Assembly: GCA_027306595.1 (NCBI GenBank)
Contig: DAHUZI010000129.1
Span: 1 to 36,610 of the forward strand
DNA from: Candidatus Dormiibacterota bacterium
Lineage (GTDB): Bacteria; Chloroflexota; Dormibacteria; Aeolococcales; Bog-877
Reading direction: 5' to 3'
Length of the DNA stretch: 36,610 nt
Numbering within the stretch: position 1 is the first letter of the stretch; the number at the start of each line of letters is the position of its first letter. Positions 1,984-36,610 of this stretch are shown piece by piece. A program made the position numbers and the translations under genes. Under the pieces are notes generated by a model that ran no database searches, was not told where the DNA came from, and was given only the letters and a program-made list of their open reading frames with translations.

Positions 1984-2006
1984 GGGATCCGGTCAGATTA
2001 CTCTTA

Positions 2007-17488: not shown

Positions 17489-18175
17489 CTAGCTCGCGAT
17501 CGTCCAGCCCTGGGGATTCAGCAGGATCAGCGGCGACTGGGGCGTGGCCCCGTGCAGTCGCGTCGAGATGGCCGAGATCTGGTACGGGGGGAGCGGCTCC
17601 CAGAACACCGGCAGCTGAAGGGCGAGGTAGGCAGCATAGCGGTGCATGGGCTGGTAGCCAGTGCGCTCGAGCACCGATCCCATCAGCTGGTCGGCGGTGG
17701 GATTGGAGTAGGCACCGAGGTTCTCGAGCGCACCCGTCGCGAAGAGGACGTCACCGGATGGAAAGGCGCCGAAGGCGTAGGTCCAGCTCGGATAGCCCCA
17801 GTCGGCCATGCCCCACTTGCAGCCGACCCCGGTCTTGGCATCGCAGGGGAGAACCTGGGTGAACAGCGTGTTGTAGGGCGTCTGGACCAGGGCGAGCTGA
17901 ATCCCAACCTGCCCCAGCGCCGACTTGAAGGCTTCCATCTGCTGGGCCAGGCTCAGGTCACCGGTGGCGTAGACCATCGTGAATGCCAGCGAGTCCCCGG
18001 CCTTGATGCCGGTGCCGCACCGTCCGCGCCCGCTCCCTGGGTGGAGGCAGCGGTCCGTGCCGCCGCTGGTCAGCGACCAGCCGTGGCCGCGGAGCAAGCC
18101 CCTCGCGGCGGCCAGGCTGGACGGGTAGGGGTTGCGCTGCTCGCCGCTGCCGGCGAAGGGGTTGGCGGGCTCGCG
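17489..18175 (-). pseudogene. 5'-truncated family-5 solute-binding protein, paralogue C
   Basis: Only the C-terminal third of an SBP remains. Homology to paralogues A and B starts at PANPF and continues through NPYPSSLAAARGLLRGHGW, CLHPGSGRGRCGTGIKAGDS, MVYATGDLSLAQQMEAFKSA, CDAKTGVGCKWG and YAAYLALQLPVFWEPLP to a normal end. The first ~390 residues, including the signal peptide, are missing; upstream of ~18175 the frame is unrelated sequence. The four characteristic cysteines are kept. It ends 28 bases before the dimethylformamidase-like gene, so an SBP plus amidase operon probably stood here before deletion. An ATG/GTG at 18229 keeps the frame open but cannot produce a complete binding protein. 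Confidence 0.85.
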
Positions 18176-18255
18176 GGGACCGGCCCGCCGGGCCTGGCTG
18201 TTCTCGGAGCTGCCCGGCGGCGTCGGCACATCGAGGGCTCGCCCGGGTCCCCGGG

Positions 18256-19649: not shown

Positions 19650-20757
19650 CTGCCTCCGGTGCTTCCACCCCGGCTGGTTCGGGGCGGTGATGGCAACCGC
19701 AATCGTCGGGGTCGACGCCTCGCTCAACCCCGGCCACGCCAGCCCGCTCGCGGGGATCGCCCAGGACGTCGCCCGCGCCATGTCCGCGCTGGCAGCCGTG
19801 CTGGCCATCGTCCTCGGCGTCCCCTCCGTCGTGCACGGATCCGCTATCCCTCCGACGCCGCTGTCGACCTGCACGACCCGCTGCTGAGCCCGCTGTATGC
19901 CACGGTCCCGCCGGGCTCCTGGTGGTCGCCGTGGCGGCCGCCGCGATCGGGCCTGAGCTCCTCCGCCGAGGCGTCGCCGACCAGCTGGTCCTCTGACGCG
20001 CCTGGGTGGCGATCCCGCTCACGTTCGTGGTCAGCATGCTCATCGCCCACCTGCTGTTCGCGCACCGGAGCCTGGTGCTCGAGTCGGTGAACGGCGCCTG
20101 GATCATCCCCCCAGTCGCCACCATCATCGTGCCGGTGGTGCTCGCCTCCCTCCTGCCGGGGACCGCCCCCGCCACTGGCCGACTGCTGCTCCCGATCGGG
20201 TACGGGTTCTGGGGGATGGGCTTCCTGCTCTTCCTGCTCATCCTCGGGCTGCTCCACGACCGGCTGGTGCTCCACCCCCTCCCGGGGGCCGCGCTCGCTC
20301 CGTCGCTGGTGATCCCGCTCGGCCCGGTGGACGTGGGGACCGTGGCCCTGCTGAAGCTCACGGCGGCGGGCGGCGCGCTCTGGCGCCCGCTGGCCCCGAC
20401 GGTGGGTGTCGTCTCCACCGTGGGCGGCACCGCCCTGTGGGGCTTCGGCTTCTGGTGGCTCGCCTCCACCCTCTCGCTCCTCATGCGCTACCTGCGCAAC
20501 GGGCGGCTCCCCGACCGCCAGGGCTCGTGAGCCTCCACCTTCCCCGTCGGCGCCTACACGGTCGCCACCCTCGCGTTGGCGCAGGCCTGGCGGCTGGGTG
20601 TCCTGGAGGATGCAGGCGCGGCCCTCTTCGGGCTGCTGGTTCTCCTCTGGCTGGTGGTCGCCGGGCGCACCCTCCGCGCCGCCCAAACCGGAGAGGTCTG
20701 GGCGCCGCGCCTGCGACCCCGGACCGCGCCCGCCGCCGCCCCCGCCCCCGCCGCCTG
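19650..20757 (+). pseudogene. second TDT-family transporter, broken by frameshifts and two TGA codons
   Basis: The homologous N-terminus (HPGWFGAVMATAIVGVDA) starts at ~19666. The frame shifts by one base near 19820-19845 to give RIRYPSDAAVDLHDPLLSPL, then again near 19905-19920 to give LVVAVAAAAIGPELLRRGVA. This last frame runs to 20757, through hydrophobic helices such as VAIPLTFVVSMLIAHLLF and FWGMGFLLFLLILGLLHD, except for in-frame TGA at 19994 and 20528. Both TGA codons align with tryptophans of the intact TDT protein at 5447-6640 (VLW and WWSFTFPVG). A shorter frame 20006-20530 codes several helices but not a whole carrier. The family is sure; functional status is doubtful. Confidence 0.8.
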
Positions 20758-21016: not shown

Positions 21017-22381
21017 GTCAGGAGTTGTGGAAACTGCCGGCGAGGACCCGCTGATGGCGGGGACGATGGCGGCGTAGCCTCCAGGGTGAGGTACCAACTC
21101 AAGGCCCCGGCAGTCGAGGTCACCTGGAGGCCACGCCGTGTTTCGGCAACGCTATCAGGTTCTCGACCCGACGGCCCCGGTGCCGGTGCCCGACGATCGG
21201 CTGGAGCAGCTGGTGCGCCGGGGGGTACAGCGCCTCCTGCAAGCCGCCCTGGCGGAGGCGATCGCCGACGACCTCGGCCGCGGGCGCGCTGAGCGCCGGC
21301 GGGCGTTCCGCGGGCGGGTGAGCGACGTCCCCGCGGGCCAAGCGCCCTTCCAGTCGGCCGTGGTGAGCCGGTGGCAGCGCCGCTCCCGGACCCAGGAGTG
21401 GCGGCTGGTGCGGCTCTACCTCGAGGGACTGGCCAGTGGCGACTTCGAGCCGGTGTTCTGCGCCCTGGTGGGCGAGACGGCAGCCCTGTCGCCGACCAGC
21501 ATCGCCCGGCTCCAGGCGGAGTGGCAGGCGGAGGACGACGCCTGGCGGCAGCGTCCGCTGCCCGAGCACATCGTCTACCGGTGGGCCGACGGGTTCTATC
21601 TCAACGCCGGCCCGGAGCGCGACACCCTCGCCGTCCTGGTCGTCCTCGGCGGGCATGGGGACGGTCGCAAGGAGCTGCTGGCGATGGCGGAGGGCTATCG
21701 CGAGGACACCCCCAGCTGGGCCGACGTGCTGCGGGACCTGAAGACCCGCGGGCTGACCGAGCCTCCGCTGGTTGCGGTTGGCGATGGCGCGCTCGGGCTC
21801 TGGGCGGCGCTGGACCAGGTGTATCCGACCACCCGGCACGCTCGGTGTTGGAATCATCGAGCCTTGAACCTGTGGGCCAAGCTCCCCCAGTGGCTGCCCG
21901 CGCGCGCCCGGGCGGCGCTCCGGGCCATGTACGAGGCGCCGACGCGAGCCGCCTGCACCGAGCGGCGGGACGCCTCCGCGGCCGAACTCCGCGGCCAGGG
22001 CTACCCGGAGGTCGCGGCCTGGCGGGCGCGGGACTGGGACGACTTCACCGCCTTCTCCGACTTCCCCGAGGAGCCCTGGCGCCATCTGCGCACCAGCAAT
22101 CCGATCGAGTCGGTGTTCAGCGGGGTGCGCCTGCGGACCGACGCCGCCAAGCGGCACAAGGTCCGTGCACACGCCCTCTACCTGACGTTCACGCTCGTGC
22201 TGCGCCTGAGCGCCAACTGGCGGCTCCTCGACGGGCCCAACCCGCTGCAGCTCCTGCTGCTGGAACACCGGTTTATCGACGGCAAGCTCCAACTCGCTCC
22301 CCCGCCATCAGCCCAGGAAGCCTCCGCCTACCACCACCCCACCGCATCCCTTCCCTTGAGGAAATTCCACTGGTCCTTGAC
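21017..22381 (+). mobile_element. IS256-family insertion sequence, about 1.37 kb
   Basis: Candidate imperfect terminal inverted repeats are 21017-21038 (beginning GTCAGGAGTTGTGGAAA) and the reverse complement of 22360-22381 (beginning GTCAAGGACCAGTGGAA). They match well only with a gap, so the ends are approximate, and no 8-9 bp direct repeat is obvious. The element holds one intact IS256/mutator transposase. The right repeat is well defined; the left is less sure. Confidence 0.7.
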
Positions 22382-22511
22382 AAGACCTCCCGTCGAGCAG
22401 GCGGTTGGGGGCGAAGGCACGGCCACTGGGCAGATCATGCCGGCCACGCCCACCAAGGTGATCGATGGGGGCCCGAGCCTGCCGCCGCGGCAACCGAGCC
22501 GTGGGTCGTGA
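21138..22511 (+). CDS. IS256 (mutator)-family transposase
   Basis: 457 residues from GTG 21138, preceded by TGGAGG at good spacing. The DDE catalytic residues are visible as D151 (YRWADGFYLN), D216 (VAVGDGALGLW) and E324 (TSNPIESVFSG), with the usual ARCWNHRALNLWAKLP segment between. The N-terminal part carries the expected DNA-binding region and GRAERRRAFRG. The body is uninterrupted, so the enzyme may be active. The last ~50 residues after about residue 408 lack homology: the frame reads through the predicted right inverted repeat and stops at 22511, in flanking DNA. This suggests that the normal stop near the element end was lost or that the tail comes from the insertion site. Confidence 0.92.
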   Translation: MFRQRYQVLDPTAPVPVPDDRLEQLVRRGVQRLLQAALAEAIADDLGRGRAERRRAFRGRVSDVPAGQAPFQSAVVSRWQRRSRTQEWRLVRLYLEGLASGDFEPVFCALVGETAALSPTSIARLQAEWQAEDDAWRQRPLPEHIVYRWADGFYLNAGPERDTLAVLVVLGGHGDGRKELLAMAEGYREDTPSWADVLRDLKTRGLTEPPLVAVGDGALGLWAALDQVYPTTRHARCWNHRALNLWAKLPQWLPARARAALRAMYEAPTRAACTERRDASAAELRGQGYPEVAAWRARDWDDFTAFSDFPEEPWRHLRTSNPIESVFSGVRLRTDAAKRHKVRAHALYLTFTLVLRLSANWRLLDGPNPLQLLLLEHRFIDGKLQLAPPPSAQEASAYHHPTASLPLRKFHWSLTRPPVEQAVGGEGTATGQIMPATPTKVIDGGPSLPPRQPSRGS

Positions 22512-23137: not shown

Positions 23138-24859
23138 CTACGGAACAATCGGCACCAGCAGCCAGCTCGGATGTGCGGGTCCGCTTCCGATCGTGGTCGT
23201 CCCCGCATAGCGCTCGGCCGCTCGACTGCCCACGTCGCCATGCACGAAGGTCCACCGGTTCGGAGTTCCTCGCAGCGCATCGCGGCCGCTCACCACCAGC
23301 TCGAGCCACGAGCCCACAGGCATGATGATGCAGGTTGGCCAGACCTCGACCTCCACCGCATGCATCACGGTCGGAACCAAAGGCTCCTCACACTGATGGG
23401 CATGGTACGGACGGTCCTCCCGCGACCGGGTGGAGTCAAGCCGCCTGTGTGACGCGCGCAGCCAGCCCTGGGCGAGCGGCGCCTCCGGGTCGTTGGCCCC
23501 CTGGAAGGTGATCTCCGACCCATCGGGACGGCGCCCGCGCACCACCACGAACAGGTCCGCATCCGCCGTGGACGACGCCACCTCGAGATGGAGAGCCAGG
23601 GGACCGGTGATCTCGGTGGCCACGGGAAACGGGTCCGTGCGAAACGCAACCCCGTCTCCGCGCGCGCCGAAGGCGATGGGGGCATCCTGCTCCGCGGGCT
23701 CCTGGCGAATCGCCAGTTCCGCGCCATGCACGTGATAGCGCACCCACCGTGTGCGTGCCAGCGGCCACTCGTGCTCGCGACGCAGCACCGTGCTCCCATC
23801 CGCGTGGCGCACGTTGAGAAAGACCTTCGGCTCACTGTCCCACCCGTTGGGCTGTCCCTTGAGGAAGAAGTCGAAGAACCGTAGCTGAAGCTCCAGCGCG
23901 TACCCGAGGTAGAACGCCTCGTCGTGCCGGCCGGTGTGAACCTCGAGCCACTTGTGCTCAGACCCCGAAGCCGTGAACCCCTCGATGTTGCCCCGTGCGT
24001 GACGGCCAATGCCGCCCCAATTCGCTGCCGAGAGGAGCGGCACCCGGATCCTGCCATAGTCCGCGGACCGTGATCGGTGCCATTCATCGTCAAACGGATG
24101 GCGGAGGACTTCGTCGTGAAAGTCCACACGGTTCGCCGCCAGCTCCTCGGGGGGCAACGACTCCGGTCCGGTCGCCGGCTCGTTCAGCCAGGGATCCCAC
24201 GGGCCACGAGCACCCAGCCCATGCTGAAGGGAGAGGACCTGGTCGGTGAACCACGCCTCGGTGAAGCCGCTAAGGAGGATGCCGCCGTGGTACGTGCGCT
24301 CTCGATAGAGGTCGCCTGACCCCTCCCACGGGATGATCGCGGCGAGGTGGGGCGGGTTGAGCGAGGCGACCAACCACTGGTTGATGGCGTAGTAGGAGAT
24401 TCCACACAGCCCCACCCGCCCGCTGCACCATGGACGCGTCCCCGCCCACTCAATGGCCTCGGCGTAGTCCTGGACCTCGCGCGCCGAGTAGCAGTCCAGG
24501 ATCCCGCTCGAGCGACCGGCGCCCCGCGAGTCCACCCGAACCACGGCGTACCCTCGGGGCACCCAGCGCTCGGGGTCAACCGTCTCCCATGTCAGATAAC
24601 GGCAGGTCGACCCCTCGAGGACCTCAGGGTGCCGCTCGACCAGCCACGCCCACTCCTCCGCATACTTGTCCTGATACCGCACCCCTTTCCCATATGGACC
24701 GAGCGTCATGATCACCGGCACCGGGACCGCTGCCGGACGAAACACGTCGGCACGCAGGACGACCCCGTCGCTTGTGGGTATGGGAACGTCCCGCTCGATC
24801 ACCATCGGGACCGCTGGACGGCCATGACTGTTCAATGAGTGGATTCCCATGCTAACCAT
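23138..24859 (-). CDS. CocE/NonD-family serine hydrolase, paralogue 1
   Basis: 573 residues of the X-Pro dipeptidyl-peptidase (S15)/cocaine-esterase superfamily. The N-terminal alpha/beta-hydrolase part has IPTSDGVVLRADVFRP, GYAVVRVDSRGAGRS (oxyanion region) and the nucleophile elbow CGISYYAINQW with Ser155. The histidine region is LEVHTGRHDEAF. The C-terminal part is the jelly-roll domain (ADADLFVVVRG and SHRRLD). The position where many CocE enzymes have GWxD reads SAANWGGIGRHARGN, so the catalytic acid is not obvious. It follows paralogue 2 on the same strand, downstream of a solute-binding protein gene. Substrates in the family are acyl esters or amides. ATG 24859 is used; a second ATG at 24850 is possible. 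Confidence 0.92.
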   Translation of the reverse strand: MVSMGIHSLNSHGRPAVPMVIERDVPIPTSDGVVLRADVFRPAAVPVPVIMTLGPYGKGVRYQDKYAEEWAWLVERHPEVLEGSTCRYLTWETVDPERWVPRGYAVVRVDSRGAGRSSGILDCYSAREVQDYAEAIEWAGTRPWCSGRVGLCGISYYAINQWLVASLNPPHLAAIIPWEGSGDLYRERTYHGGILLSGFTEAWFTDQVLSLQHGLGARGPWDPWLNEPATGPESLPPEELAANRVDFHDEVLRHPFDDEWHRSRSADYGRIRVPLLSAANWGGIGRHARGNIEGFTASGSEHKWLEVHTGRHDEAFYLGYALELQLRFFDFFLKGQPNGWDSEPKVFLNVRHADGSTVLRREHEWPLARTRWVRYHVHGAELAIRQEPAEQDAPIAFGARGDGVAFRTDPFPVATEITGPLALHLEVASSTADADLFVVVRGRRPDGSEITFQGANDPEAPLAQGWLRASHRRLDSTRSREDRPYHAHQCEEPLVPTVMHAVEVEVWPTCIIMPVGSWLELVVSGRDALRGTPNRWTFVHGDVGSRAAERYAGTTTIGSGPAHPSWLLVPIVP

Positions 24860-24903: not shown

Positions 24904-26604
24904 TCACGGGATTACGGGCAGCACCAAGCACGAAGGGTGGGCGGAACCCGTGTAGAGCGTCGTTGTGCCGCCGAAGATCGATGCCGGCCGGTCGTGTGGA
25001 TCGTCGTGCGTGAACGGCCCCGACCCCTGCATGACCCACACCGGATCAGGCTTGGTCTCCTCGCGTCGGAAGTCGCGCCCCGCCACGACCACCTCAAACA
25101 CGGCGCCCTCCGGCAGCACGATGCAGGTTGGCCAAAGTTCGATCGCCAGCTCGTAGACGGCGCCGACCTCGAGCGGCTCTGGCTGGCGGTGGGAGTGGTA
25201 CGGTCGATATGGGCGTGACCGCACCGGGTCCAGCCGGCGGTGGGACGCCCGCAGCCATCCCTGGGTCAACGGGGTCCGCGGGTCGTTCGCTCCCTGAAAC
25301 GCGACCTCGACTCCGTCCGAGGTGAATGCCCGCAGCGTCAAGAACAGATCGGCGTCGCTCGTCGACGAGGCCACGAACAGCCGGGCGGCCACGGGCCCCG
25401 TGACCTCGATCGACCGCTCCAGGGGGGCGGTTCGAAGGCGTACATCCGTCGACAGCGCCGCGAAGCCCACATCCGCGTCCGCCCCCGGCCCATCCCAGTC
25501 GAGCCGGCCCGCGGCAGCCTGGAGGTAGAGCTTGGACCACATCGTCCGAGTCAGGGGCCACTGATCCTCGGATCGACGCACGACGCTCCCATCGGCATGC
25601 CGAATATGGAGTTGGACCCGGGGTTCGTTGTCCCAGCCGTTGTCCTGCCCCATTAGGAAGTGGTCGAAGAAGCGTCGCTGCAGCTGCTGCCCGTAGGGCA
25701 GATTGAACCATTCGTCATGACGGCCCACGTGAACCTCGAGCCACTTCTGACGTGACGCGCTCTCCGTGAAGCCCTCGAAGTTGCCCCTCGCGTGCAGCCC
25801 AATCCCTCCCCAGTTGCCCGATGAGAGAAGCGGCACGGTCACCTTCTCGAAGTCAGCCGATCGCCCACGGAAGTACTCGTCGTCCAGCGGGTGGGAGCGC
25901 ATGCCGCCCAGCAGGTCCACCCGAAGCCGGTCGAGCTCCGTTTGAGGGAGCGACTCGGGACCCGTGGCTCGTTCATCCAGCCAGGGGTCCGTCGGGGCCC
26001 CCTCCTCGCGCCCGTGCTGAAGCGTCTCCACCTGGGCCGGGAACCACACCTGAGTGAAGTGATTGCTGAGGATGCCGCCGTGGTAGGCCCACTCCCGGTA
26101 GAGGTCCGAGCACCCCTCCCAGGGAATCATCGCAGCCAGGTGCGGAGGCTCAAGGCCGGCCACCAGCCACTGGTTGATCGCATAGTACGAGATCCCGCAG
26201 AGCCCGACCATGCCTGAGCACCACGCCTGGGTCGCCACCCACTCGATGGCCTCGTAGAGGTCGCGGACCTCGCGCGGGGAGAAGCAGTCCAGCGTCCCCG
26301 GCGAGCGCCCAGCTCCCCGAGAGTCCACCCGCACGCATGCGTAGCCGGCCGGCACCCAGACGTCCGGATCGACGGTCTCCCAGACTGCGTAGCGCCCTGT
26401 GCTCTTGGCCAGCACCTCGGGATGGTGGCCGACCAGCCAGTCCCATTCCTCCCGGTAGAAGTCCTGATACCGCACCCCCTTCCCGTAGGGGCCAAGGTTC
26501 ACGATCGCGGGGCATGGAACGCCGTCGTCCGACGGTCGGAACACATCACAGCGCAGGGTGACATCGTCCGACATCGGGATGGCAACTTCCCGCTCGATCC
26601 TCAT
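24904..26604 (-). CDS. CocE/NonD-family serine hydrolase, paralogue 2
   Basis: 566 residues, close paralogue of the next gene downstream: same IPMSDDVTLRCDVFRP start, VRVDSRGAGRSPGTLDCFSP, nucleophile elbow CGISYYAINQW (Ser139), SSGNWGGIGLHARGNFEGF and LEVHVGRHDEWF. The jelly-roll C-terminus carries SDADLFLTLRAF and ASHRRLDP. As in its neighbour, the expected acid of the triad is replaced by NWGG. The gene lies 40 bases downstream of the solute-binding protein, 44 bases upstream of paralogue 1, all on the minus strand, so the three are probably one transcript. There is no signal peptide, so the hydrolases are likely cytoplasmic and act on what the SBP helps import. Confidence 0.93.
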   Translation of the reverse strand: MRIEREVAIPMSDDVTLRCDVFRPSDDGVPCPAIVNLGPYGKGVRYQDFYREEWDWLVGHHPEVLAKSTGRYAVWETVDPDVWVPAGYACVRVDSRGAGRSPGTLDCFSPREVRDLYEAIEWVATQAWCSGMVGLCGISYYAINQWLVAGLEPPHLAAMIPWEGCSDLYREWAYHGGILSNHFTQVWFPAQVETLQHGREEGAPTDPWLDERATGPESLPQTELDRLRVDLLGGMRSHPLDDEYFRGRSADFEKVTVPLLSSGNWGGIGLHARGNFEGFTESASRQKWLEVHVGRHDEWFNLPYGQQLQRRFFDHFLMGQDNGWDNEPRVQLHIRHADGSVVRRSEDQWPLTRTMWSKLYLQAAAGRLDWDGPGADADVGFAALSTDVRLRTAPLERSIEVTGPVAARLFVASSTSDADLFLTLRAFTSDGVEVAFQGANDPRTPLTQGWLRASHRRLDPVRSRPYRPYHSHRQPEPLEVGAVYELAIELWPTCIVLPEGAVFEVVVAGRDFRREETKPDPVWVMQGSGPFTHDDPHDRPASIFGGTTTLYTGSAHPSCLVLPVIP

Positions 26605-26644: not shown

Positions 26645-28456
26645 TCACCACTGCTCCGGATAGATGCCGAGGTAGGGGTCCTGAGGGATGGTGTGGCGCA
26701 GCGCGCTCTTGACCGCGGACACGCGCAGGTCCTGCATCGGTAGGAAGATGACCGGTTGCTGGCGAGCCATGTAGTTCTCGTACTGGTGCAGCGCGCTGAC
26801 GCCCGACCGCAGGGTCGCGTTGATGAGTCGGTCGGTCGTCGGATCGCACCAGTTCTGGTCGTTGGCGAACGACCCGCATTCGAACGCCAGCTGGCCGGTG
26901 GGATAGAAGGAAGGCGCCGAGAAGGGCCAAAACTCCCGTCCCAGGAAGATATCCCACGGGCACGTGGCCTTGCCTACGCAGGCTCCCGACTCGGCGAGAG
27001 CCGACGCGCCTACGCCCTGCGTGATCTGGGTCTTGATCCCGACCCGACTCCAGGCCGACTGCTCCGCCTCGATGATCTGCACCAGCTGGGGCGTTCCGAC
27101 CACGACCAGCGCGCGCAGAATCAACGGCAGCCCGGCCCGGATGCCGGCACCGCACTCGGTCGCGCCGGTTCCCGGCCTTGCGCACGTGGACTCGCCGCCA
27201 GGGCGCACGGTCCACCCGTGGCTCTTCAGCAGGGCCACGGCCCTGGCGGGATTGTAAGGGTAGGGGTCCGTGCGCTCAAAGGCGGTGACCAGAGGGCTGT
27301 GACCGCCTGGATCCGGAACAGGCCCAGACGCGTACGAGGCGTAGCCGTGCCAGAGCTTGGAAATCCCACCCATGTCGGTGAGATAGGTCAGGACCTGGCG
27401 GATGTACAGCTGGTGGAGCACGGGCCCCATCGCGTCCTTTCGCGCGTACTGCAATACCAGCCCGTTCCAGGTCATCTGCGGCCAGCCGGAGATTCGGAAC
27501 CCACTCTTCCGCAGGCGTCCGATCGTGGTGAGGTCGGTGTAGGGCACGTAGCCGTAGTCCACCTGGCCGGCGAGCAGGGAGTTGAACTCGGCCGTGTCGC
27601 TGGTGAAGGGCAGCTCCACAAGCCGGGCAAAGCGTGGTGCGTTCGGACCTGAGTACGACTTGTTCCGCACCAGCGACGCATAGCTGGTGGTCGGCACGTA
27701 GGACTGGACCTTCCATGGCCCGTCCACCGTCTGCCACAGGGGATTGCTCCCGTACGCGGAGAAGTCCTTGGCCTGCGAGACCAGGAAGTTATAGACGGAT
27801 CGGGCACCGGATGGAGTCAGGTCGTAGTTCTTGATGGGTCCGCCCGCGGACGTCCGATCCCAGGCCTGCTGCGGAAGTGGCGTGATCAGGCTGAGTTCGG
27901 CGAGCTCAAGCCATTGATGGCTGTACGTACCGTTGAACGTCACCCGGAAGGTCTTCGGCGACAGAACCGCCAGGCTGGTGACATTGTCGGGATACTCGCC
28001 AGGGACATAGTTGGCGTAGTTCGTCTTGTTGGCCTTGAGGAGGTTCTCCCAGAACTCAACATCGCGTGTGGTGACGGGTGCGCCATCCGACCACTTGTAG
28101 TTGCGCATGGTGATGGTGGCCACAGTGTGCCCCGAGGCACTGGTGGACCAGACTGGCGGATTCGCCAGGCTCACGTCAGGGTTGAAGTTGGTGGTGCCCC
28201 GGTATCCTGCCCAGTAGAGAGGTCTCCACATGAGGTATTCCCACCAGGCCTGATTGGGGAAGAACGAATAGGCGCCCGAGTAGAAGGGAAGGATCCACGT
28301 CGGCCCGGCGTCCGTCAGTGACGCGAAGGTGACGGTTGATGTCGAGGTCTGGGCGGCAGTCGCAGAGCCCGCGAGAGCAGCGGACGTGGCGGCCAATGCG
28401 ATCAGCGCACTTCCCACCACTGCCGCAGCCCGCCGTCTGATCATACGGATCCGCAT
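26645..28456 (-). CDS. secreted family-5 solute-binding protein, paralogue D
   Basis: 603 residues from ATG 28456, which sits behind a strong GAGGAGG ribosome site; the longer frame to 28522 is not needed. Residues 1-39 form a signal peptide (RMIRRR, Ala/Val core, SATAAQ) without lipobox cysteine. Shared SBP_bac_5 landmarks include YKWSDGAPVTTRDVEFW, SLITPLPQQAWDRT, LPFTSDTAEFNSLLAG, YIRQVLTYLTD and PVTAFERTDPYPYN-like sequence. The cysteine pattern is kept (CARPGTGATECGAG and CVGKATCPW). It is more diverged from A and B than they are from each other. It leads an apparent operon with two CocE-type hydrolases. A consensus promoter lies about 250 bases upstream. Ligand unknown; esters or amides are suggested by the neighbours. 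Confidence 0.93.
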   Translation of the reverse strand: MRIRMIRRRAAAVVGSALIALAATSAALAGSATAAQTSTSTVTFASLTDAGPTWILPFYSGAYSFFPNQAWWEYLMWRPLYWAGYRGTTNFNPDVSLANPPVWSTSASGHTVATITMRNYKWSDGAPVTTRDVEFWENLLKANKTNYANYVPGEYPDNVTSLAVLSPKTFRVTFNGTYSHQWLELAELSLITPLPQQAWDRTSAGGPIKNYDLTPSGARSVYNFLVSQAKDFSAYGSNPLWQTVDGPWKVQSYVPTTSYASLVRNKSYSGPNAPRFARLVELPFTSDTAEFNSLLAGQVDYGYVPYTDLTTIGRLRKSGFRISGWPQMTWNGLVLQYARKDAMGPVLHQLYIRQVLTYLTDMGGISKLWHGYASYASGPVPDPGGHSPLVTAFERTDPYPYNPARAVALLKSHGWTVRPGGESTCARPGTGATECGAGIRAGLPLILRALVVVGTPQLVQIIEAEQSAWSRVGIKTQITQGVGASALAESGACVGKATCPWDIFLGREFWPFSAPSFYPTGQLAFECGSFANDQNWCDPTTDRLINATLRSGVSALHQYENYMARQQPVIFLPMQDLRVSAVKSALRHTIPQDPYLGIYPEQW

Positions 28457-29336
28457 CCCATCCCTCCTCAAGTGCGCCCCGTGCAACGGGTGCGAGGCTG
28501 CCTTCCAGGCCGCAAAGCCCATGAACCAAGGGCAGACACAGCAGCTTCCGACCAGGAGCCGGCGCGCGCCAACACCTCACGGATGGTCACCAGTGCCCCC
28601 CCGCACCGCCCTGCGCCTCCACCGATCGCGACGGGCGGCGACGCGTTGCGCCCCAGGGAAACGGGACCTCACTGGCCCGCTCCGCGATCGCGCGCCACAG
28701 CTGAAACCGTAGCATTTCTCTGCGCAGGTGTCAACCGGCTCGACACGATCGCGCGTGTGCCGCGTGCCGCGCGTCAGGCGGTGTCCGCACCACCGCTGCA
28801 GCATCTGCGCGATGGGTTGGTCGATCGGCTGGTGGGCAGCGTGGCGCGACGGCGAAGCCGCGCGACGCCGCGTCATCGGATGCGAAACGCGTGAGCCGGG
28901 CGGGTCACCCCTCACGTGAGGACTCCTGGTGCCCGGATCGTCCGTGTGCGACCACGCCAGCCGAATGTCGTCAACCTGGCGTGCCTGGGCCTTGGACCGC
29001 AGGCGGGTGCGGACCCGCCCGAAGCGCCGTGTCGGCCGGCGGTGCAACGGCCTCGGCGACGCTGGAGCGCGCAGCCGCCGCCGAGAGGTCGCATCCTCGG
29101 GTGGGCTGGCCCTGCGCGACGCCCCATCGGCCGTGCGGGGCGGCGGCCTGGATGCCGGCCCACCGCGGCTACCCTGCGGCCATCTCGCAACGGCCCGCCA
29201 ACCGGCAGTGTCGGCGGCGTCCATCGCGGGTGACGGTGCCGGCCTGAGCCTGGGCGTCGTCCGAGTCCGGCCCTCGAGGCATGCGCGGCAGGCTGGAGCC
29301 GACCGCATCGGCGCCACCAGCGCCGCCCCCGCCCCC
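28457..29336. other. 880-base gap: leader, promoter and unassigned DNA
   Basis: Contains the ribosome site and leader of the SBP-D gene and the promoter at 28706-28734. From ~28740 to 29336 the open frames on both strands give motif-less Arg-rich translations. A run around 28770-28880 with lower GC bias might once have been coding, but I recognise nothing. Confidence 0.4.
28706..28734 (-). promoter_or_regulatory. sigma-70-type promoter of the SBP-D/CocE operon
   Basis: On the minus strand: TTGACA (28734-28729), a 17-base spacer and TACGGT (28711-28706). The predicted leader before the ATG at 28456 is about 240 bases. A long leader could carry post-transcriptional control, but I see no recognised riboswitch in it. 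Confidence 0.68.
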
Positions 29337-30050
29337 CTACCAGTCCACCGGCTGGCGGTCGAGGAAGAGGCGCCCCGTCGGTCCGTCATCGGGCAGGGTC
29401 GCCAGGTACGCCACGGTGTCGGCGCCCTCGTCGGGGGTTCTGGGCGCGTCGGGGCCGCCCATGTCGGTCCGCACCCAGCCCGGGTCGGCGCAGTTCACCA
29501 GCACCCCCGTCCCCCGGAGCTCCGCCGCCAGCTGGGCGGTCAGCATGTTGATCGCGGTCTTGGAGACGCTGTAGGCGGGACTGCCCAGCTCCATCGCGGT
29601 GAATCGGCTGAGCCCGCTGGACAGGGTGACCACCCGGCCGTAGCCGCGCTCGACCATTCCCGGGACCAGGGCTCGGATCATCCGCCAGACGCCGACGACG
29701 TTCACCGCCAGCGTCGCCTCCAGCACCGGGTCGTCCACGTGGAAGACGGTCAGGCCGTCGTCGGGGAGGACCCCGGCGTTGTTGACGAGGACGTCCACCC
29801 CCCCGAGCCGCTCCCGGCACACCGCGGCGCAGCGCTCGACCGACCCCAGGTCGGTGACGTCCAGCGCCACCGGCACCGCCCGTCCGCCGGGGCAGGCGCT
29901 CGCGACCGCCTCGGCGGCGGCCAGCTGGCGGGCCGCGACCACGGTGGTCAGGCCCCGCTCCGCCAGCTGCCCGGCGATCGCGCGGCCGATCCCGCGGCCC
30001 GCCCCGGTGACCAGGGCGACCCGCGGTCGCACCTCGCTGATCGTGCTCAT
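29337..30050 (-). CDS. short-chain dehydrogenase/reductase (classical SDR)
   Basis: 237 residues. All classical SDR marks are present: cofactor motif TGAGRGIG at residues 16-23, NNAG at 90-93, and catalytic S145, Y160 and K164 (LSSGLSRF and YSVSK). An arginine after the second strand (VVAARQ) suggests NADP(H) preference, tentatively. The ATG overlaps the true-frame stop of hyuB as ATGA, so it is the last gene of the operon that starts beyond the right edge. SDRs reduce or oxidise carbonyl/alcohol groups; here it may process a product of ring opening. Substrate unknown. Confidence 0.93.
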   Translation of the reverse strand: MSTISEVRPRVALVTGAGRGIGRAIAGQLAERGLTTVVAARQLAAAEAVASACPGGRAVPVALDVTDLGSVERCAAVCRERLGGVDVLVNNAGVLPDDGLTVFHVDDPVLEATLAVNVVGVWRMIRALVPGMVERGYGRVVTLSSGLSRFTAMELGSPAYSVSKTAINMLTAQLAAELRGTGVLVNCADPGWVRTDMGGPDAPRTPDEGADTVAYLATLPDDGPTGRLFLDRQPVDW

Positions 30051-31722
30051 GACGTCCTCCTCATGGGGCGGGCGGCGCGAGCGCGCCGCCCTGGCCCGGG
30101 TGCACCATCGGTCCCATCGCGTTCGTCAGCGGCGTCCGCGCGCCGCAGCCGGGCCGACCGGCGGCCCGCGGGGCCGTATCCGCCGCCGCCGCTGGTCTCG
30201 ACCCGCAGCACCGTGCCCGGGGCGAAGGTCGCGGTCCCCTTGCTGGGGATGGGGCTCTGCCGGCCGTCGGGCTCGATCCGGAGCAGCCGGCCGGCCGGAA
30301 CCGGGGATCGGTCTGCTCCGCGTAGTAGGTGACGGTCTGGGGGTGGTCGAGGATCTCGTAGTCGCGGCGGAGCCCGAGACCGCCGCGGTAGCGGCCCCGC
30401 CCCTGCGAGCCGGGGATCAGCTCGGTCCGTCGGATCCGGACCTGATACTGGCTCTCCGCCACCTCCACCGGCATCAGTCCGACGTTCGACAGGTAGGTGT
30501 CGACCCCGTCGAGGCCGTCCCCGGCCCGGTGGGCGCCGGTGCCGCCCCCGACGACGTCGGCTAGGACCGCGGCCCCGCCGTGGACCGGCGAGCGGCTGCC
30601 GATGTTGACGGCGAAGAACGCGGTCGAGCTGCTGGCGACCGCCCGCTCCGGCCAGAGCGCGGAGAGCGAGCGGATCAGGACGTCGGCCAGCCGTTGGCAG
30701 GTGTTGTGGCGCACCGACACCGCCGCCGGGAAGCAGGGGTTCAGCACCGACCCCTCGGGGCAGACGAGGGTGACCGGCTCCAGGAGCCCGTCGTTGACGT
30801 GGGTGTCGGGCTGGACCATCGCCCGCACCGCATAGACGACGGCCGCCCGGGTGCTGGCCCAGGGGACGTTGATCGCCCCCGCCACCTGCGCCGCCGAGCC
30901 GGACAGGTCGATGCGCAGCCGGGCCCCGCGCTTTTGGATCTGGGCGTGGATCCGGGTGGGCGGCCCCTGGCGCCCGTCGTCGTCGCAGAAACCCTCGCTG
31001 ACGGCGACGCCGTCGGCGAGGTCACGGAGCGCCGCCCGGGTCGCCCGCGCGCTGGCGGCGAGCGCCTCGGCGAGGGCAGCCCGCACCCGAAGGGCCCCGT
31101 GGCGCGCGACCAGCTCCTGGAGCCGCGCCGCCCCGAGCCGGCACGCGGCCCGCTGGCCCCGCAGGTCCGCGATCGTGCTCCCGGGATCACGGACGTTGGC
31201 GGCGAGGATCCGGACCAGGTCCTCCAGCTCGGCGCCCCGCCGGTCGAGGTGCACCGGTGGGAGCAGCAGCCCCTCCGCATACACCTCCTGGAGGGCCGGT
31301 CCCTCGGTCCCGGGATTGACGCCCCCGACATCGAGGTGGTGGGCGGCGGTCCCGGCCCAGGCGAGGAGGCGGCCCTGGTGGAAGACCGGGCGGATGACGT
31401 TGAGGTCAGGGGTGTGCATCGCCCCGAGGTAGGGGTGGTTGGCGAGGAAGACGTCGCCGTCGGCGAGCGTGGGCCCCCATCGGGTGAGGATGCTGCGGAC
31501 CACGAGCCCCATCGCCCCCAGCTGGGCGGGGATGTAGTCGGCCTGGGCGGCCAGCGCGCCCTCGGCCGTGAAGAGGGCGCAGGAGAAGTCCTCCATGTCC
31601 CGGATGATCGGGCTGTAGCTCGAGCGCTTGAGGACGCCCCCCATCTCCTGGGCCGCCGCCACCAGCCCCTGGTGGATGAGCTCGAAGGTGATCGGGTCGA
31701 GGCGGGCCGGCCCCGCGCTCAT
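30047..31722 (-). CDS. hyuB: hydantoinase/oxoprolinase B subunit, frameshifted near its end
   Basis: About 558 codons in the reconstructed frame. The protein starts DPITFELIHQGLVAAAQEMG, continues DMEDFSCALFTAEG, DGDVFLANHPYLGAMHTPD, TAAHHLDVGGVNPG, RIDLSGSAAQV and VGGGTGAHRAGDGLDG, which is the HyuB/oxoprolinase B signature. With HyuA it forms an ATP-dependent amidohydrolase that opens hydantoins, oxoproline or similar rings. At ~30286-30302 (a CCGG-CCGG-CCGG run) the frame as read turns into a nonsense tail ending at 30061. Supplying one base (or one CCGG unit) restores RIEPDG, IPSKGT, VLRVETSGGGGYG and a stop that overlaps the next ATG as ATGA. The conserved GGGGYG lies in this tail, so the frameshift matters. 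It starts as ATGA over the hyuA stop. Confidence 0.88.
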
Positions 31723-33815
31723 CGGCCCGGCGCCTCACGCAGCCAGAGGGTGCCCTGCGGGTCCAGGACGAGCACCTGCCCGGCGAGCGCCAGGGTGGTG
31801 GCGTCCATCTGCTCGAGGAGCGCGGGGCCGCGCAGCCGCGCCCCCGGCCGCAGCTGCTCCCTTCGGTGGACCGGAACCCAGACCGCCCGGCGGGCCAGCG
31901 GCAGGCGGACCCGGCGGCGCTCGACCGGGACCGGGCTGGGCGCCCGCCGCGACGCAGGCGCGGGCGAGGGCGCCGGGGCCGGAAGCGGCCCGAGGGCCGC
32001 CAGCCGCAGGGTGACGAGCTCGACCGGCTCCTGCGGGCTGGCGTGGCCATAGGCGGCGAGGTGGGCCGCGTCGAACGCCGCCCGCAGCCCGCCCAGGTCG
32101 GCCCGGCTCCCGGAGCCCAGGGGGATCCCCAGCGCATAGCCCTGCCCCCGATAGCGGCAGTCCGCGCGCCAGCGCAGCCGCACCCGCCGGCGGTCGACGC
32201 CGTCCGCCGCCAGGGCCTGGGTGAGCGTGTGGGCGGCCTCCCGATACCAGCTCGCGGCGGCGGCGAGGACGGCCGGTTCGAGCGGCCACAGGACCGTCTG
32301 GGCCTCGTCCATGCGCACGTCGGACGCCACGAGCCCGGCGGCGGCGAAGCAGCCCGGCTCGGGCGGGATCGCGACTTGGCGCAGCCCCATCTCCCGAAGG
32401 AGGAGGCCGGCGTGGAGCGGGCCGGCCCCGCCGAAGGCGACCAGGGTGTAGCCCCTGGGGTCGAGCCCGCGCTCGACCGAAACCCGGCGGATCGCGCCCG
32501 TCATCTGGGCGAGGGTGACCGCGAGGATCCCGGCGGCGGTCGCCTCGGGGTCCAGCCCCAGGGCCCGGCCGACGCGGGCGACCGCCTCCCGGGCGGCGGT
32601 CGGGTCCAGCCGGAGCCGACCCGCCAGGCGGGTGTCAGCGCCGAGCGTCCCCGCCACGACGTGGGCGTCGGTGACGGTGGCCTCGGTCCCGCCCCGGCCG
32701 TAGGCGGCCGGGCCGGGCCGGGCGCCGGCGCTGGCGGGCCCGACCCGCAGCCGCCCGGCCCGGTCCACCCGGACCAGGCTCCCCCCGCCGGCGCCGATCG
32801 CGACCACGTCGACCGACGGGCAGAGGATCGGATGGCCGCCCACCGTCTGCTCGGGCCGGACCGGGGGCACGCCGTCGTCGATCAAGCAGACGTCCAGGGA
32901 GGTGCCGCCCATGTCCATCGAGATCAGCCGGTCGAGCGCGTGCCGCCGACCGAGGGCGGCCGCGCCACTCACCCCGCCGGCCGGGCCCGACACGACCAGC
33001 CGGTGGGCCTCGCGCTCCGCGCGCGGGGCGGCGACGGTCCCGCCGCTCGACTGCATCACGACCAGCCGACCGGTCGTCCGTCGCGCCTGGAGCTGGGCGT
33101 CCACGCGGAGGAGGTACTGCCCCACCACCGGCCGGAGCGCGGCGTTCAGCGCCGCGGTGGCGGTCCTGGGGTACTCCCGGTACTCCCTGGCGCACGCGGC
33201 CGACCGGGTGACCGGAATCCCCGGGAGCCGGCGCTCGATCGCCCGGGCCAGCCGCCCCTCGTGGGCGTCGTTGCGGTAGCTGAACAGGCATGCGACCACG
33301 ACCGCCTCGGGACCGCGAGCCGCCACCGCCTCCGCGACCCGGCGGACCTCGTCGTCGGTGAGGGGGATCAAGACCCGGCCGGCGTGGTCGAGCCGCTCGA
33401 CCGCCTCCAGGCGGTCGCAGCGCGCCACGAGCTCGAGCGGGGGCGCGGGCTGGAGGCTGTAGAGGTCGGGCCGGCTTCCGCCGCGATACCCCAGGAGGTC
33501 GCGGAACCCCTGGGTGATGACCAGGACGACCCGCGCCACCCGCTGGGCGACCAAGGCGTTGGTCGCCACCGTCGTGCCGTGGGCGATCAGCCCGATCGAC
33601 GCCGGCACGAACCCCATCGCCGCCAGCTCGTCGAGCGCGGCAAGGAACCCCTGGGCCGGGTCGTCCGGGGTCGAGGGGACCTTGGCGACGTGGCGCCCAC
33701 CCGCGCTGCCGACCGCCACCGCATCCGTGAACGTGCCGCCGACATCGACGGCGACCGTCCACCGCTCCGCCTCCGGGCGCCGTGCCGCGGCCCGGCCCCT
33801 ACCCGCCGGCGTCAC
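31719..33815 (-). CDS. hyuA: hydantoinase/oxoprolinase A subunit (ATP-binding)
   Basis: 698 residues of the actin/hexokinase-fold HyuA family. Phosphate loop 1 is VDVGGTFTDAVAV near residue 23 and phosphate loop 2 is SMDMGGTSLDVCLID near residue 300. ITQGFRDLLGYRGGSRPDLY, HGTTVATNALVAQR, RVSVERGLDPRGY and VAFGGAGPLHA are all family signatures. The C-terminal domain (from ~540) is shorter in motifs and Arg/Pro-rich. It supplies ATP phosphorylation chemistry for amide-ring cleavage with HyuB. The GTG start overlaps the stop of the LLM gene (GTGA) and its stop overlaps hyuB (ATGA), so it is translationally coupled on both sides. The exact ring substrate (hydantoin, 5-oxoproline or another lactam/imide) cannot be told from sequence. 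Confidence 0.93.
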   Translation of the reverse strand: MTPAGRGRAAARRPEAERWTVAVDVGGTFTDAVAVGSAGGRHVAKVPSTPDDPAQGFLAALDELAAMGFVPASIGLIAHGTTVATNALVAQRVARVVLVITQGFRDLLGYRGGSRPDLYSLQPAPPLELVARCDRLEAVERLDHAGRVLIPLTDDEVRRVAEAVAARGPEAVVVACLFSYRNDAHEGRLARAIERRLPGIPVTRSAACAREYREYPRTATAALNAALRPVVGQYLLRVDAQLQARRTTGRLVVMQSSGGTVAAPRAEREAHRLVVSGPAGGVSGAAALGRRHALDRLISMDMGGTSLDVCLIDDGVPPVRPEQTVGGHPILCPSVDVVAIGAGGGSLVRVDRAGRLRVGPASAGARPGPAAYGRGGTEATVTDAHVVAGTLGADTRLAGRLRLDPTAAREAVARVGRALGLDPEATAAGILAVTLAQMTGAIRRVSVERGLDPRGYTLVAFGGAGPLHAGLLLREMGLRQVAIPPEPGCFAAAGLVASDVRMDEAQTVLWPLEPAVLAAAASWYREAAHTLTQALAADGVDRRRVRLRWRADCRYRGQGYALGIPLGSGSRADLGGLRAAFDAAHLAAYGHASPQEPVELVTLRLAALGPLPAPAPSPAPASRRAPSPVPVERRRVRLPLARRAVWVPVHRREQLRPGARLRGPALLEQMDATTLALAGQVLVLDPQGTLWLREAPGR

Positions 33816-34855
33816 CCGGTGCGGGTGAGCAGGGGCAGGACGCGCTCGCCCAGGCAGGCGAGCGTCTCCCGCTGGACCCCGGGGTCGAGCCCCGGCCAGT
33901 AGCCGCGAGCGACCAGGTGGACCGGGCGGCCCGCCGCGGTGGCGTAGGCGGCCAGGCCCTCGGCCACCTGCTCCGGCGAGCCGGCGAGGATCGTGGAGCG
34001 CAGCCGCTCCGTCTCCGAGGCGTCGGGGCGCGGCGGGGCCAGCTGACGTCGGTCGGTCCCGTAGGCGCGGACCTCCATGTCCTGGTACTTCCAGTCCACG
34101 TACTGGTGGAACGGGAGGATCCGCTCAAAGGCGTTCGGTCCCTCCCAGGGGAAGACCGACACGATGGCGCCGACGGCGAGCGTTGCGGGATCGCCCCCAC
34201 TCTGGGCGCGGGCCTCCAGCGCCCAGCCCACCTGCTCGGCGAACGCGGCCGGCGACGCCTCGGTCGCCAGGAAGCCGTCCGCAAGCCGGCCCGCCCGCCG
34301 CACCGCCCCCTCGCCCATCGCCCCGACCCAGATCGGCGGCCCGCCCGGGCGGGCGGGCCCGGGGGTGACGAGCACCTCCGGGTAGCACACGCCCGCGCCC
34401 CCCCTGGTCGGCTGGCCGCTCCAGCCCTGGCGCAGGGTGGCGATGGTGTCGCGGAGTCGCCGGACCCGGTCGGCGGGGGCGACGCGCAGCGCCCGGAGCT
34501 CCTCGGTCCTCCAGCCCAGCCCCAGCCCGAGGAGGAGGCGCCCGTCGCTGAGGCAGTCGACGACCGCGGCGTCCTCAGCGATCCGGACCGGCTCGTGCAG
34601 GGGCGCGAGCAGGAGCCCGGTCGCGACCGCGCAACGCTCGGTCCGCGCCGCGATCGCGGCCGCCAGGGGAAGCAGCGACGGGCAGTAGCCGTCATCGACG
34701 AAGTGGTGCTCCGACACCCACACCGAATCGAGCCCGAGCTGATCCGCCTGGGCGGCGAGCTCCAGCGCCTGGCGGTAGCGCTCGGTGTCCGGTCGACGGT
34801 CGTCCGGGTGGTGCTGGCAGGTGATGAGCCCGAACCCCAGCCTGGTTGCGCTCAC
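33812..34855 (-). CDS. LLM-class flavin-dependent oxidoreductase
   Basis: 347 residues of the luciferase-like monooxygenase superfamily. It starts SATRLGFGLITCQHHPD; then the family pattern LGLDSVWVSEHHFVDDG, SDGRLLLGLGLGWRTEEL, GGPPIWVGAMGEGAVRRAGR and LADGFLATEAS is clear. These enzymes use FMN or F420 for monooxygenation or dehydrogenation; RutA, which opens the uracil ring, is one member. The GTG at 34855 is chosen because it overlaps the upstream acyltransferase stop as GTGA; a longer frame to 35179 exists but is antisense-free filler over that gene. Its stop overlaps hyuA. In this operon it could oxidise a heterocycle before ATP-dependent ring opening. FMN versus F420 cannot be decided here. 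Confidence 0.92.
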   Translation of the reverse strand: MSATRLGFGLITCQHHPDDRRPDTERYRQALELAAQADQLGLDSVWVSEHHFVDDGYCPSLLPLAAAIAARTERCAVATGLLLAPLHEPVRIAEDAAVVDCLSDGRLLLGLGLGWRTEELRALRVAPADRVRRLRDTIATLRQGWSGQPTRGGAGVCYPEVLVTPGPARPGGPPIWVGAMGEGAVRRAGRLADGFLATEASPAAFAEQVGWALEARAQSGGDPATLAVGAIVSVFPWEGPNAFERILPFHQYVDWKYQDMEVRAYGTDRRQLAPPRPDASETERLRSTILAGSPEQVAEGLAAYATAAGRPVHLVARGYWPGLDPGVQRETLACLGERVLPLLTRTG

Positions 34856-36006
34856 CGGGCGAGCGCCGCCGCTGGCTGACGGGGTGGGGCGCCCGCGCCC
34901 AGGAGGGCCGCGTAGTCGAGCCGACGGTATGCGGCGGTGCAGGGCGGCCCGTCGGCGAGCCAGAGGACGCCGGCATCGAGGTCCATCAGCACCGAGGCCA
35001 CCGTCGCCCCCTGGTCCACCTCGGCGGCACGGGGATCCGGGTGGGCGCAGACGGAGAAGGGATGGCAGGCATGGTCGCTGAGGACTGCCCGGAAGGTGTC
35101 GAGCGAGCAGCGGGGGCCGGCGGCGAGGACCGCCTCCTGGAGCCGCACGAGCCGGGTCGGACTGTCGGGCATCGCCCACACCGAGACGTCCGTCCCCCGA
35201 AAGCGGGGAGCGAGGAAATGGTTGGTGTGGAGACAGATCCCGTCGGCGGGAAGGAGGACGTGGACGTCGCCGTATCCACCGGGCGCGGCCTCGACGTCGC
35301 AGGCGACCCCGTCCCGGTGGGCGATCAGGTAGTTGGCCGAGGACGAGCGCCGCTGGGCCTGCAGGCAGGTCAGCGCCTCGGGCACGGTGGCCTCCCCGAG
35401 CAGGGCCCGCAGGAGCACGTGGTAGGGGACGCCGGGAACGCCCCGGTCCTGGTCGGTGACCAATGCGTTGGTCGCCACCCCCAGGCCGCAGGCGTTCATC
35501 CCCACCTTGGCGAGGAGCCCGGCCTCGACCACGGTGACGAACGCCGGCCCGTCGTCCGGCTCCGCCTCGAGGACGACCACGGTCTCGAAGGCATGGGGGA
35601 GCCAGTCCCAGTTCTGCCCGACCAGGGTGTGGCCGTCAGCGCTCCGGCGGGGCAGGACCGCGAAGGCGCTGCAGCCATCCTGGGTCTGACGACGGGCGTC
35701 GCGGGCGGTCGCCGCGAACATCACCTCGGTGCGGACGTTGAGGGCGAGGATGTCGTCGCGGTCGACGCCGGCACCGGCGGCGAGGCCGGCCATCTCCTCG
35801 AGGATCGCGGGCCGGAAGGCTCCGATCGGCTCGGCGTAGCGCCGGGCCTCGCCGAGAACGGTCGGCCAGTCCCAGCCGCAGCGGCTGAGGAACACCGTCC
35901 GGTAGGCAAGGAGCGAACGGGCGACCCGGTCCCGGGCCGCGGCGCCGTATTGGCGCCCCCGCTCGAACGCCGGGCCGGCAACGCGCACATGGGGAAAGGT
36001 CGTCAT
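34852..36006 (-). CDS. C45-family autocatalytic N-acyltransferase/amidase
   Basis: 384 residues of the isopenicillin-N acyltransferase-like (peptidase C45) Ntn-hydrolase family. The predicted self-cleavage site is G111/C112 (QTQDGCSAFAVLP), followed by GHTLVGQNWDWLP, VVVLEAEPDDGP, EAGLLAKVGMNACGLGVATN and HTNHF, the standard order of this family. After cleavage, Cys112 would be the nucleophile of the beta chain. Known members transfer acyl groups on 6-APA or hydrolyse N-acyl amides. No signal peptide is visible. The ATG is seven bases from the stop of the SDR upstream in the operon, and its own stop overlaps the LLM start (GTGA). It fits release or transfer of an acyl group during use of an N-acylated compound. 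Confidence 0.92.
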   Translation of the reverse strand: MTTFPHVRVAGPAFERGRQYGAAARDRVARSLLAYRTVFLSRCGWDWPTVLGEARRYAEPIGAFRPAILEEMAGLAAGAGVDRDDILALNVRTEVMFAATARDARRQTQDGCSAFAVLPRRSADGHTLVGQNWDWLPHAFETVVVLEAEPDDGPAFVTVVEAGLLAKVGMNACGLGVATNALVTDQDRGVPGVPYHVLLRALLGEATVPEALTCLQAQRRSSSANYLIAHRDGVACDVEAAPGGYGDVHVLLPADGICLHTNHFLAPRFRGTDVSVWAMPDSPTRLVRLQEAVLAAGPRCSLDTFRAVLSDHACHPFSVCAHPDPRAAEVDQGATVASVLMDLDAGVLWLADGPPCTAAYRRLDYAALLGAGAPPRQPAAALAR

Positions 36007-36013
36007 CGGTCCC

Positions 36014-36610
36014 TCACAGAATGCTGAGCCCGCCGTCGACGGGGAGCACCGCCCCGGTCACATAGCTCGCCGCGTCGGACAGGAGGAAGCAGATCACCTC
36101 GGCCACCTCGTCGGCCCGGCCCAGCCGGCGCAGCGGCACCTGGGTGCCGACCACCCGGGCGCCGCGCGCGGGGTCGTCCATGAGCCGCAGCATCGGCGTC
36201 GCGATGTAGCCGGGGGCGACGGCGTTGACCCGGATGCCGTCGGCCGCCCACTCCGCCGCCATCTGCCGGGTGAGCGCCAGGACCCCGGCCTTGCTGGCGG
36301 CGTAGGCGGCGCTGGGCTCATCGGCGTCGGCCAGCGCCGCCGCCACCGAGCTGAGGTTGACGATCCCGCCCGGGCAGCGGGCGGCGACGCAGCCGCGGGC
36401 GACCGCGCGCCCGACCAAGAACGTCCCCCGAAGGTTGGTCGCGACCACCGCATCGAAGTCAGCGGCGGCGGTCGACACCAGGGGGGCGATGCGATAGACC
36501 CCGGCGGCGCTCACCAGGCAGTCAGGCGGCCCCCCCAGCTCGCTGGCGGCGGCCGCGAGGGCCGAGTCGACCGCGGCCTCGTCCTCGACGCGGCACGGGA
36601 TCCGGTCAGG
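36014..36610 (-). CDS. short-chain dehydrogenase/reductase, 5' end off the window
   Basis: The last 198 residues of a classical SDR run off the right edge. Visible marks: CLVSAAGVYR at the NNAG position, ATNLRGTFLVGRA, LSSVAAALADADEPSAAYAA with the YAASK catalytic pair, RVNAVAPGYIATPML, and the C-terminal FLLSDAASYVTGAVLPVDGG. The N-terminal TGxxxGIG cofactor motif is outside the window. Stop at 36014-36016, seven bases before the C45 gene. It probably leads or belongs to the operon that continues to 29337, which therefore has two SDRs. Reading from a GTG at 36514 would lose the cofactor site, so the frame is taken to the edge. Confidence 0.9.
   Translation of the reverse strand, partial: PDRIPCRVEDEAAVDSALAAAASELGGPPDCLVSAAGVYRIAPLVSTAAADFDAVVATNLRGTFLVGRAVARGCVAARCPGGIVNLSSVAAALADADEPSAAYAASKAGVLALTRQMAAEWAADGIRVNAVAPGYIATPMLRLMDDPARGARVVGTQVPLRRLGRADEVAEVICFLLSDAASYVTGAVLPVDGGLSIL

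Follow-up and report, generated by a model that had tools for sequence, protein, structure and literature searches.

A conserved operon combining C45, luciferase-like and HyuAB enzymes in Candidatus Dormiibacterota and Actinomycetota, with a probable role in amide catabolism

Among known systems for the ATP-dependent hydrolysis of cyclic amides, the closest are caprolactamase (CapAB) of Pseudomonas jessenii and the related oxoprolinases and N-methylhydantoinases, which have two subunits, ATP-site aspartates and an Asp-His-Asp-His metal site in common with the HyuA-HyuB pair reported here; for caprolactamase, mutation showed that the ATP-site and metal residues matter for activity (PMC8453981). 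Most HyuAB-type enzymes carry annotations that name no substrate, and few functions are known for bacterial C45 enzymes, a family of autoproteolytic N-terminal nucleophile acyltransferases/hydrolases. Here, we describe an operon at one end of a 36,610-nucleotide stretch of DNA (the window) in which genes for both enzymes are joined by a gene for a bacterial luciferase-like (LLM) flavin- or F420-dependent oxidoreductase and by short-chain dehydrogenase (SDR) genes. The window is the entire contig C25 (DAHUZI010000129.1) of a Candidatus Dormiibacterota metagenome-assembled genome (MAG; 2.6 Mb, 149 contigs, 76% complete). C45, LLM, SDR and PuuE-like neighbors of HyuAB are not described for caprolactam. 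We consider it probable that the operon is catabolic and serves to take up a small polar amide, either N-acylated or cyclic (like a lactam, imide or hydantoin), and to break it down to an amine or amino acid that enters central metabolism.

Six minus-strand open reading frames in the window have the positions and families assigned to them by an earlier reading made from the sequence alone (the sequence-only reading), according to Pfam and NCBIfam matches. From the contig end inward, they encode a classical short-chain dehydrogenase, SDR1 (36014..36610; Pfam adh_short_C2, E 4.4e-50), of which only the 3' 198 codons are present; the C45 enzyme (34852..36006; 384 residues, nucleophile Cys112; NF040521, 268.7 bits); the LLM oxidoreductase (33812..34855; 347 residues; Pfam Bac_luciferase, E 6.9e-58); HyuA, the predicted ATP-binding subunit of a cyclic-amide hydrolase that depends on ATP (31719..33815; 698 residues; Hydantoinase_A, E 8.8e-84, and Hydant_A_N, E 2.7e-46); HyuB, the metal-site subunit (30061..31722; 553 residues as open; Pfam Hydantoinase_B, E 2.7e-146); and another short-chain dehydrogenase, SDR2 (29337..30050; Pfam adh_short, E 1.7e-46). 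The C45 and LLM genes overlap in GTGA (34852-34855), as do LLM and hyuA (33812-33815), and hyuA and hyuB overlap in ATGA (31719-31722). Seven bases lie between the end of SDR1 at 36014 and the C45 start at 36006.

SDR1 is truncated by the end of the contig, and its 5' part sits on a second contig of the assembly, C17. The window end and the C17 end share an exact 141-base overlap, which is what neighboring contigs of one assembly would show. C17 contributes co-directional genes for an SBP_bac_5 protein, a PuuE-like polysaccharide-deacetylase protein, a second short-chain dehydrogenase (SDRa) and the start of SDR1, giving the joined order SBP, PuuE-like deacetylase, SDRa, SDR1, C45, LLM, HyuA and HyuB. 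Most junctions are 4-base stop/start overlaps; on C17, the PuuE/SDRa overlap is TGATG, and the SDRa/SDR1 overlap is GTGA. The operon is real and extends beyond the window.

The same genes stay together in other taxa, as the sequence-only reading had left to be checked. A C45 scan of genome contigs gave 33 loci, of which 13, not counting the window, have C45 next to LLM (L033/L039, counted once, L040, L041, L042, L044, L045, L046, L047, L050, L051, L052, L064 and L069). C45, LLM, HyuA and HyuB follow one another in this order in eight of them (L033, L040, L042, L045, L046, L050, L052 and L069). As to the others, L047 and L051 reach the end of their contigs, HyuA/HyuB lie on the opposite strand past transporter genes in L041, and L044 and L064 run into transporter genes and then end. 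The nearest relative, a Candidatus Dormiibacterota genome of the same genus (G386; L033/L039), has the same order and 88-94% protein identity to the window for C45, LLM, HyuA and HyuB; most of the other relatives are Actinomycetota MAGs, with protein identities of about 50-70%. Some loci are near copies of each other (L050/L051 and L046/L047), so there are fewer independent lineages than loci. Besides the window, 11 of the 13 loci show the 4-base C45/LLM overlap (L046 and L047 have gaps of 5-6 bases), and PuuE-SDRa-SDR1 precede C45 wherever the upstream side is present in the sequence. Pairwise protein distances correlate with r 0.50-0.95 (LLM/HyuA 0.95, PuuE/C45 0.94, C45/HyuA 0.90). Gene order conserved over such divergence is not explained by chance.

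Carriers are few among the genomes sampled. An LLM search of 297 genomes from the class of L069 matched only the genome of L069 itself, which makes the operon rare in the species sampled, and in 400 genomes of the window's phylum, with 30 loci inspected, C45 stood beside LLM/HyuA in the same-genus genome only. Plasmid matches to the LLM (approximately 40% identical, mostly haloarchaea) have other gene contexts. On a Gemmatimonadota chromosome assembly (L048:8220-11107), two inverted C45 copies have matching SDR1 pieces between them, which may be an assembly palindrome.

Two SDRs had been thought to flank the enzyme genes, and only the one before C45 proved to be conserved: an SDR1 orthologue directly precedes C45 in at least 12 loci, whereas no SDR2 follows hyuB in L033 or the Actinomycetota loci. 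SDR2 does not belong to the conserved set, and the second conserved SDR (SDRa) lies upstream. The ATGA overlap of hyuB with SDR2, noted earlier, is present solely in a shifted hyuB frame that stops at 30047. The frame that is open from 31722 runs to a stop at 30061, and its final ~75 residues are unlike HyuB, with the register lost beyond about residue 477, because 34 bases present in the same-genus L033 are missing from the window between 30292 and 30291. Either a true deletion or an error in assembly could account for this gap.

Hydantoinase_A and Hydantoinase_B domains in adjacent, overlapping subunits place HyuAB in its family, and the closest PDB relatives are N-methylhydantoinase and caprolactamase/oxoprolinase. 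HyuA D24 and D301 correspond to the ATP-site aspartates D11 and D295 of CapA, and HyuB D45, H103, D106 and H128 to the CapB metal ligands D41, H99, D102 and H124; all six are invariant in 10 sequences. HyuAB is therefore predicted to be an ATP-dependent cyclic-amide hydrolase. The pocket differs from that of CapB at L38 (D42 in HyuB, a variable position), I62 (A66), Y136 (E140), T336 (H339), M339 (C342) and P408 (T409); Y136 is the acid/base tyrosine of CapB, and the vicinal disulfide of caprolactamase is missing from HyuB. From this altered lining, the HyuB ligand is probably more polar than caprolactam. Caprolactamase identity was rejected (425 and 214 bits against an equivalog cut-off of 1000, with the hydrophobic caprolactam pocket replaced), as was acetone/acetophenone carboxylase identity (241 and 97 bits against a cut-off of 1500, with no further carboxylase subunit beside HyuAB).

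The C45 protein scores 268.7 bits against a cut-off of 85 for NF040521 and aligns to isopenicillin N acyltransferase (PDB: 2x1d), with Gly111 before Cys112. The nucleophile Cys112 is invariant in 24 C45 sequences and is predicted to be the site of autocleavage. The HTNH and QNWD motifs are retained, and the best Foldseek match of the structure model is 2x1c (E 8.6e-27). The Gly/Cys autocleavage site, both motifs and the fold (TM 0.8-0.9) are therefore shared with C45 enzymes of the isopenicillin N acyltransferase type, but the window protein shares only ~24% identity with the fungal enzyme of solved structure and, unlike it, stands in a bacterial context that is probably catabolic.

The LLM protein shares its family and fold with flavin/F420 oxidoreductases such as bacterial luciferase, PuwE and the TIGR03619 group. 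It reaches 196.9 bits for Bac_luciferase (cut-off 27.9) and 139.9 bits for TIGR03619, under the cut-off of 166.9; it is under the cut-off of every NCBIfam model among the 25 listed and falls in no named subfamily. In its structure model (pLDDT, a per-residue confidence score, 88), flavin mononucleotide (FMN) monooxygenases rank nearest by fold and F420 enzymes follow closely; PuwE and RslO1, both tailoring enzymes, are among the fold neighbors. The F420 gene cofG is present above cut-off in the window's own genome. The conserved motifs SEHHFxDD and WKYxDM set this LLM apart from known LLM oxidoreductases. RutA had been named earlier as an LLM enzyme that opens heterocycles, but a likeness to it is seen at family level only: the match is weak (E 4.4e-5), RutA is absent from the 25 top-scoring NCBIfam models listed, and RutA identity was rejected. 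The structure models of LLM and C45 gave no narrowing of the substrate.

The nearest structure to the PuuE-like protein is 3rxz, and it also matches PuuE allantoinase structures; PuuE allantoinase identity was rejected for the L069 protein, at 72 bits against an equivalog cut-off of 425.

Most Actinomycetota loci carry a branched-chain-type ATP-binding cassette transporter of the kind used for amino acids and amides, PBP6-LivG-LivF-LivH-LivM, ahead of PuuE-SDRa-SDR1, and Amidohydro_3 follows HyuB in L040, L042, L045, L050 and L069. The permease resembles UrtB at 158.7 bits, which is under the cut-off. Several loci in which that end is present also have a divergent LuxR-PBP6 regulator (L069:945-2765, minus strand, with equivalents in L041, L044, L045, L050, L057 and L064). 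The L069 regulator combines a GerE (LuxR) DNA-binding domain with a Peripla_BP_6 domain and has no hydrophobic segment by simple hydropathy scan. Across 381 residues, its sensor part shares 35% identity with the binding protein of the transporter, and for both the nearest structure is 3h5l, a putative branched-chain amino-acid binding protein. This suggests that importer and regulator share one ligand. AmiC is likewise a sensor built on the same Peripla_BP_6-type domain as binding proteins, and the AmiC/LivJ-type amide/amino-acid binding proteins have in common with these loci a Peripla_BP_6 binding protein, here with a Liv transporter. In these loci, by contrast, the sensor is a predicted soluble protein fused to a LuxR-type DNA-binding domain, and it occurs in the relatives, not in the window. 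The Dormibacterota copies have SBP_bac_5 proteins upstream instead of the Liv transporter.

SBP_bac_5 genes are also numerous in the window's genome (G000; 47 matches) and in the same-genus genome (41), compared with 1-23 in 19 other relatives. BPD_transp_1 permeases number just 18 and 14, respectively, so many binding proteins must lack permeases of their own. Within the window, SBP_bac_5 genes are located at 11736-12908 (+), 13696-14907 (+), 17492-18229 (-, a fragment) and 26645-28522 (-).

In the proposed catabolic route, the substrate would be imported by the dedicated transporter, and the SDRs and the LLM, using FMN or F420, would oxidize its carbon skeleton or a ring carbon. HyuA would activate the ring amide with ATP for hydrolysis at the metal site of HyuB; the remaining amide bonds would be cleaved by the PuuE-like enzyme and by C45 after its own cleavage at Cys112, joined in Actinomycetota by the amidohydrolase, and the freed amine would pass to a transaminase. 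We also considered that the LLM product might be a formamide that is deformylated by Amidohydro_3. A class-III aminotransferase is encoded further upstream in L033 and also in L050, and distant C45 genes stand beside class-III aminotransferase and succinate-semialdehyde dehydrogenase genes on Rhizobium and Tistrella plasmids. By association only, these plasmid neighbors, the PuuE-C45 pairs that occur without LLM/HyuAB and the HyuA-HyuB-C45 group in Peribacillus (L067) support amide hydrolysis that feeds amino-acid catabolism. A more specific version can be offered only tentatively: the LLM would be an oxygenase that activates a nitrogen heterocycle of polar character, HyuAB would use ATP to open the ring, and autocleaved C45 would free the acyl part. 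Such an undescribed pathway would have spread, by both inheritance and transfer, through uncultured Actinomycetota, Dormibacterota and other lineages, and in many carriers its control would fall to a soluble LuxR regulator whose sensor is a binding domain borrowed from the transporter.

Several observations weigh against the catabolic reading. Gene content, order, conservation and residues can be read directly, but the substrate class and the order and direction of the steps are deduced from them, and the C45, LLM, SDR and PuuE-like families are each broad. C45 also occurs elsewhere without LLM and HyuAB. In the C45 tree, the operon members cluster but do not form one clade (five label changes), so the operon came together or was split on more than one occasion. 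Transporter types vary among taxa (Liv, SBP_bac_5 and Pot), and the substrates could differ accordingly. The hyuB copy of this genome carries a frameshift, and no flavin reductase was recognized in the clusters, in which not every open reading frame per locus was annotated. The proposal in the sequence-only reading of an undescribed pathway for a cyclic or N-acylated amide nonetheless fits the conservation, the residues and the importer, but membership of SDR2 and coupling through the hyuB/SDR overlap are not supported. No published description of this gene set or characterization of the gene order was found in the open-access literature searched, so its novelty is provisional.

Other functions are less probable. 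It seems unlikely, although parts of the set suggest it, that the operon is a variant of pyrimidine, ureide or hydantoin degradation in which a RutA-like LLM acts, HyuAB and PuuE open rings and C45 or Amidohydro_3 finishes. The structural matches to PuuE allantoinase, the UrtB-like permease, a urease alpha-like gene beside the operon (L040:8174-9877, minus strand), a clustered homologue near C45 in L062 and a haloarchaeal plasmid with HyuA close to Liv genes and to genes for an LLM, a Zn-dependent hydrolase and a class-III aminotransferase would all fit. However, the LLM is distant from RutA, the PuuE-like protein has 3rxz, not PuuE, as its nearest relative and falls far short of the allantoinase cut-off, and a carbamoyl hydrolase is not a constant member, with urease near two loci only. 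Two or more separate pathways could also be co-transcribed, with PuuE-C45 as an older amide module and LLM and HyuAB acting on another substrate. PuuE-C45 pairs without LLM/HyuAB in L054, L061, L066 and an S. cadmiisoli plasmid (L082), the close PuuE/C45 correlation and the intermixing of operon and non-operon members in the C45 tree favor such a division, but the strict common order with stop/start overlaps across large divergence and the HyuAB-C45 adjacency in Peribacillus make it improbable.

That the closest solved relative of C45 is an acyltransferase, and that PuwE and RslO1 are among the LLM fold neighbors, would agree with a biosynthetic or tailoring cluster in which an isopenicillin N acyltransferase-like C45, the LLM and the SDRs decorate a small natural product. 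We regard this as quite unlikely: no scaffold-making enzyme was seen in any annotated locus; HyuAB, the PuuE-like protein and Amidohydro_3 are hydrolytic; and the dedicated importer and the sensor paralogous to its binding protein indicate uptake. Least probable is that HyuAB is an ATP-dependent carboxylase of the acetone/acetophenone type acting on a ketone from the SDRs and the LLM. SDRs do produce ketones, and HyuA scores 241 bits against ApcC and 162 bits against ApcA, but these scores are far under the cut-offs of 1250-1500, no extra carboxylase subunit adjoins HyuAB, the nearest structural relatives are N-methylhydantoinase and caprolactamase/oxoprolinase and the surrounding genes encode amide hydrolases.

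The carriers of the probable amide pathway are uncultured soil and groundwater bacteria of several lineages. The dedicated importer and, in relatives, the sensor paralogous to its binding protein offer a handle on the function of HyuAB and C45, as the ligand of the binding protein would name the pathway and would tell which nitrogen compounds these bacteria live on.

Further along the window, an N,N-dimethylformamidase beta-subunit-like gene (15257-17460, minus strand) is split over two frames and probably frameshifted, and tandem CocE/NonD-type hydrolase genes (23138-24859 and 24904-26604, minus strand) lie next to an SBP_bac_5 gene. These genes and the SBP genes were considered as operon parts and rejected, with no sign of conservation with the operon. 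Signs of rearrangement in the window are a Mutator-type transposase (21138-22508, plus strand), an IS4/5-type transposase fragment (2004-2792, minus strand) and a SLAC1 fragment (19997-20527, plus strand); a complete SLAC1 gene is located elsewhere in the window (5447-7279, minus strand).

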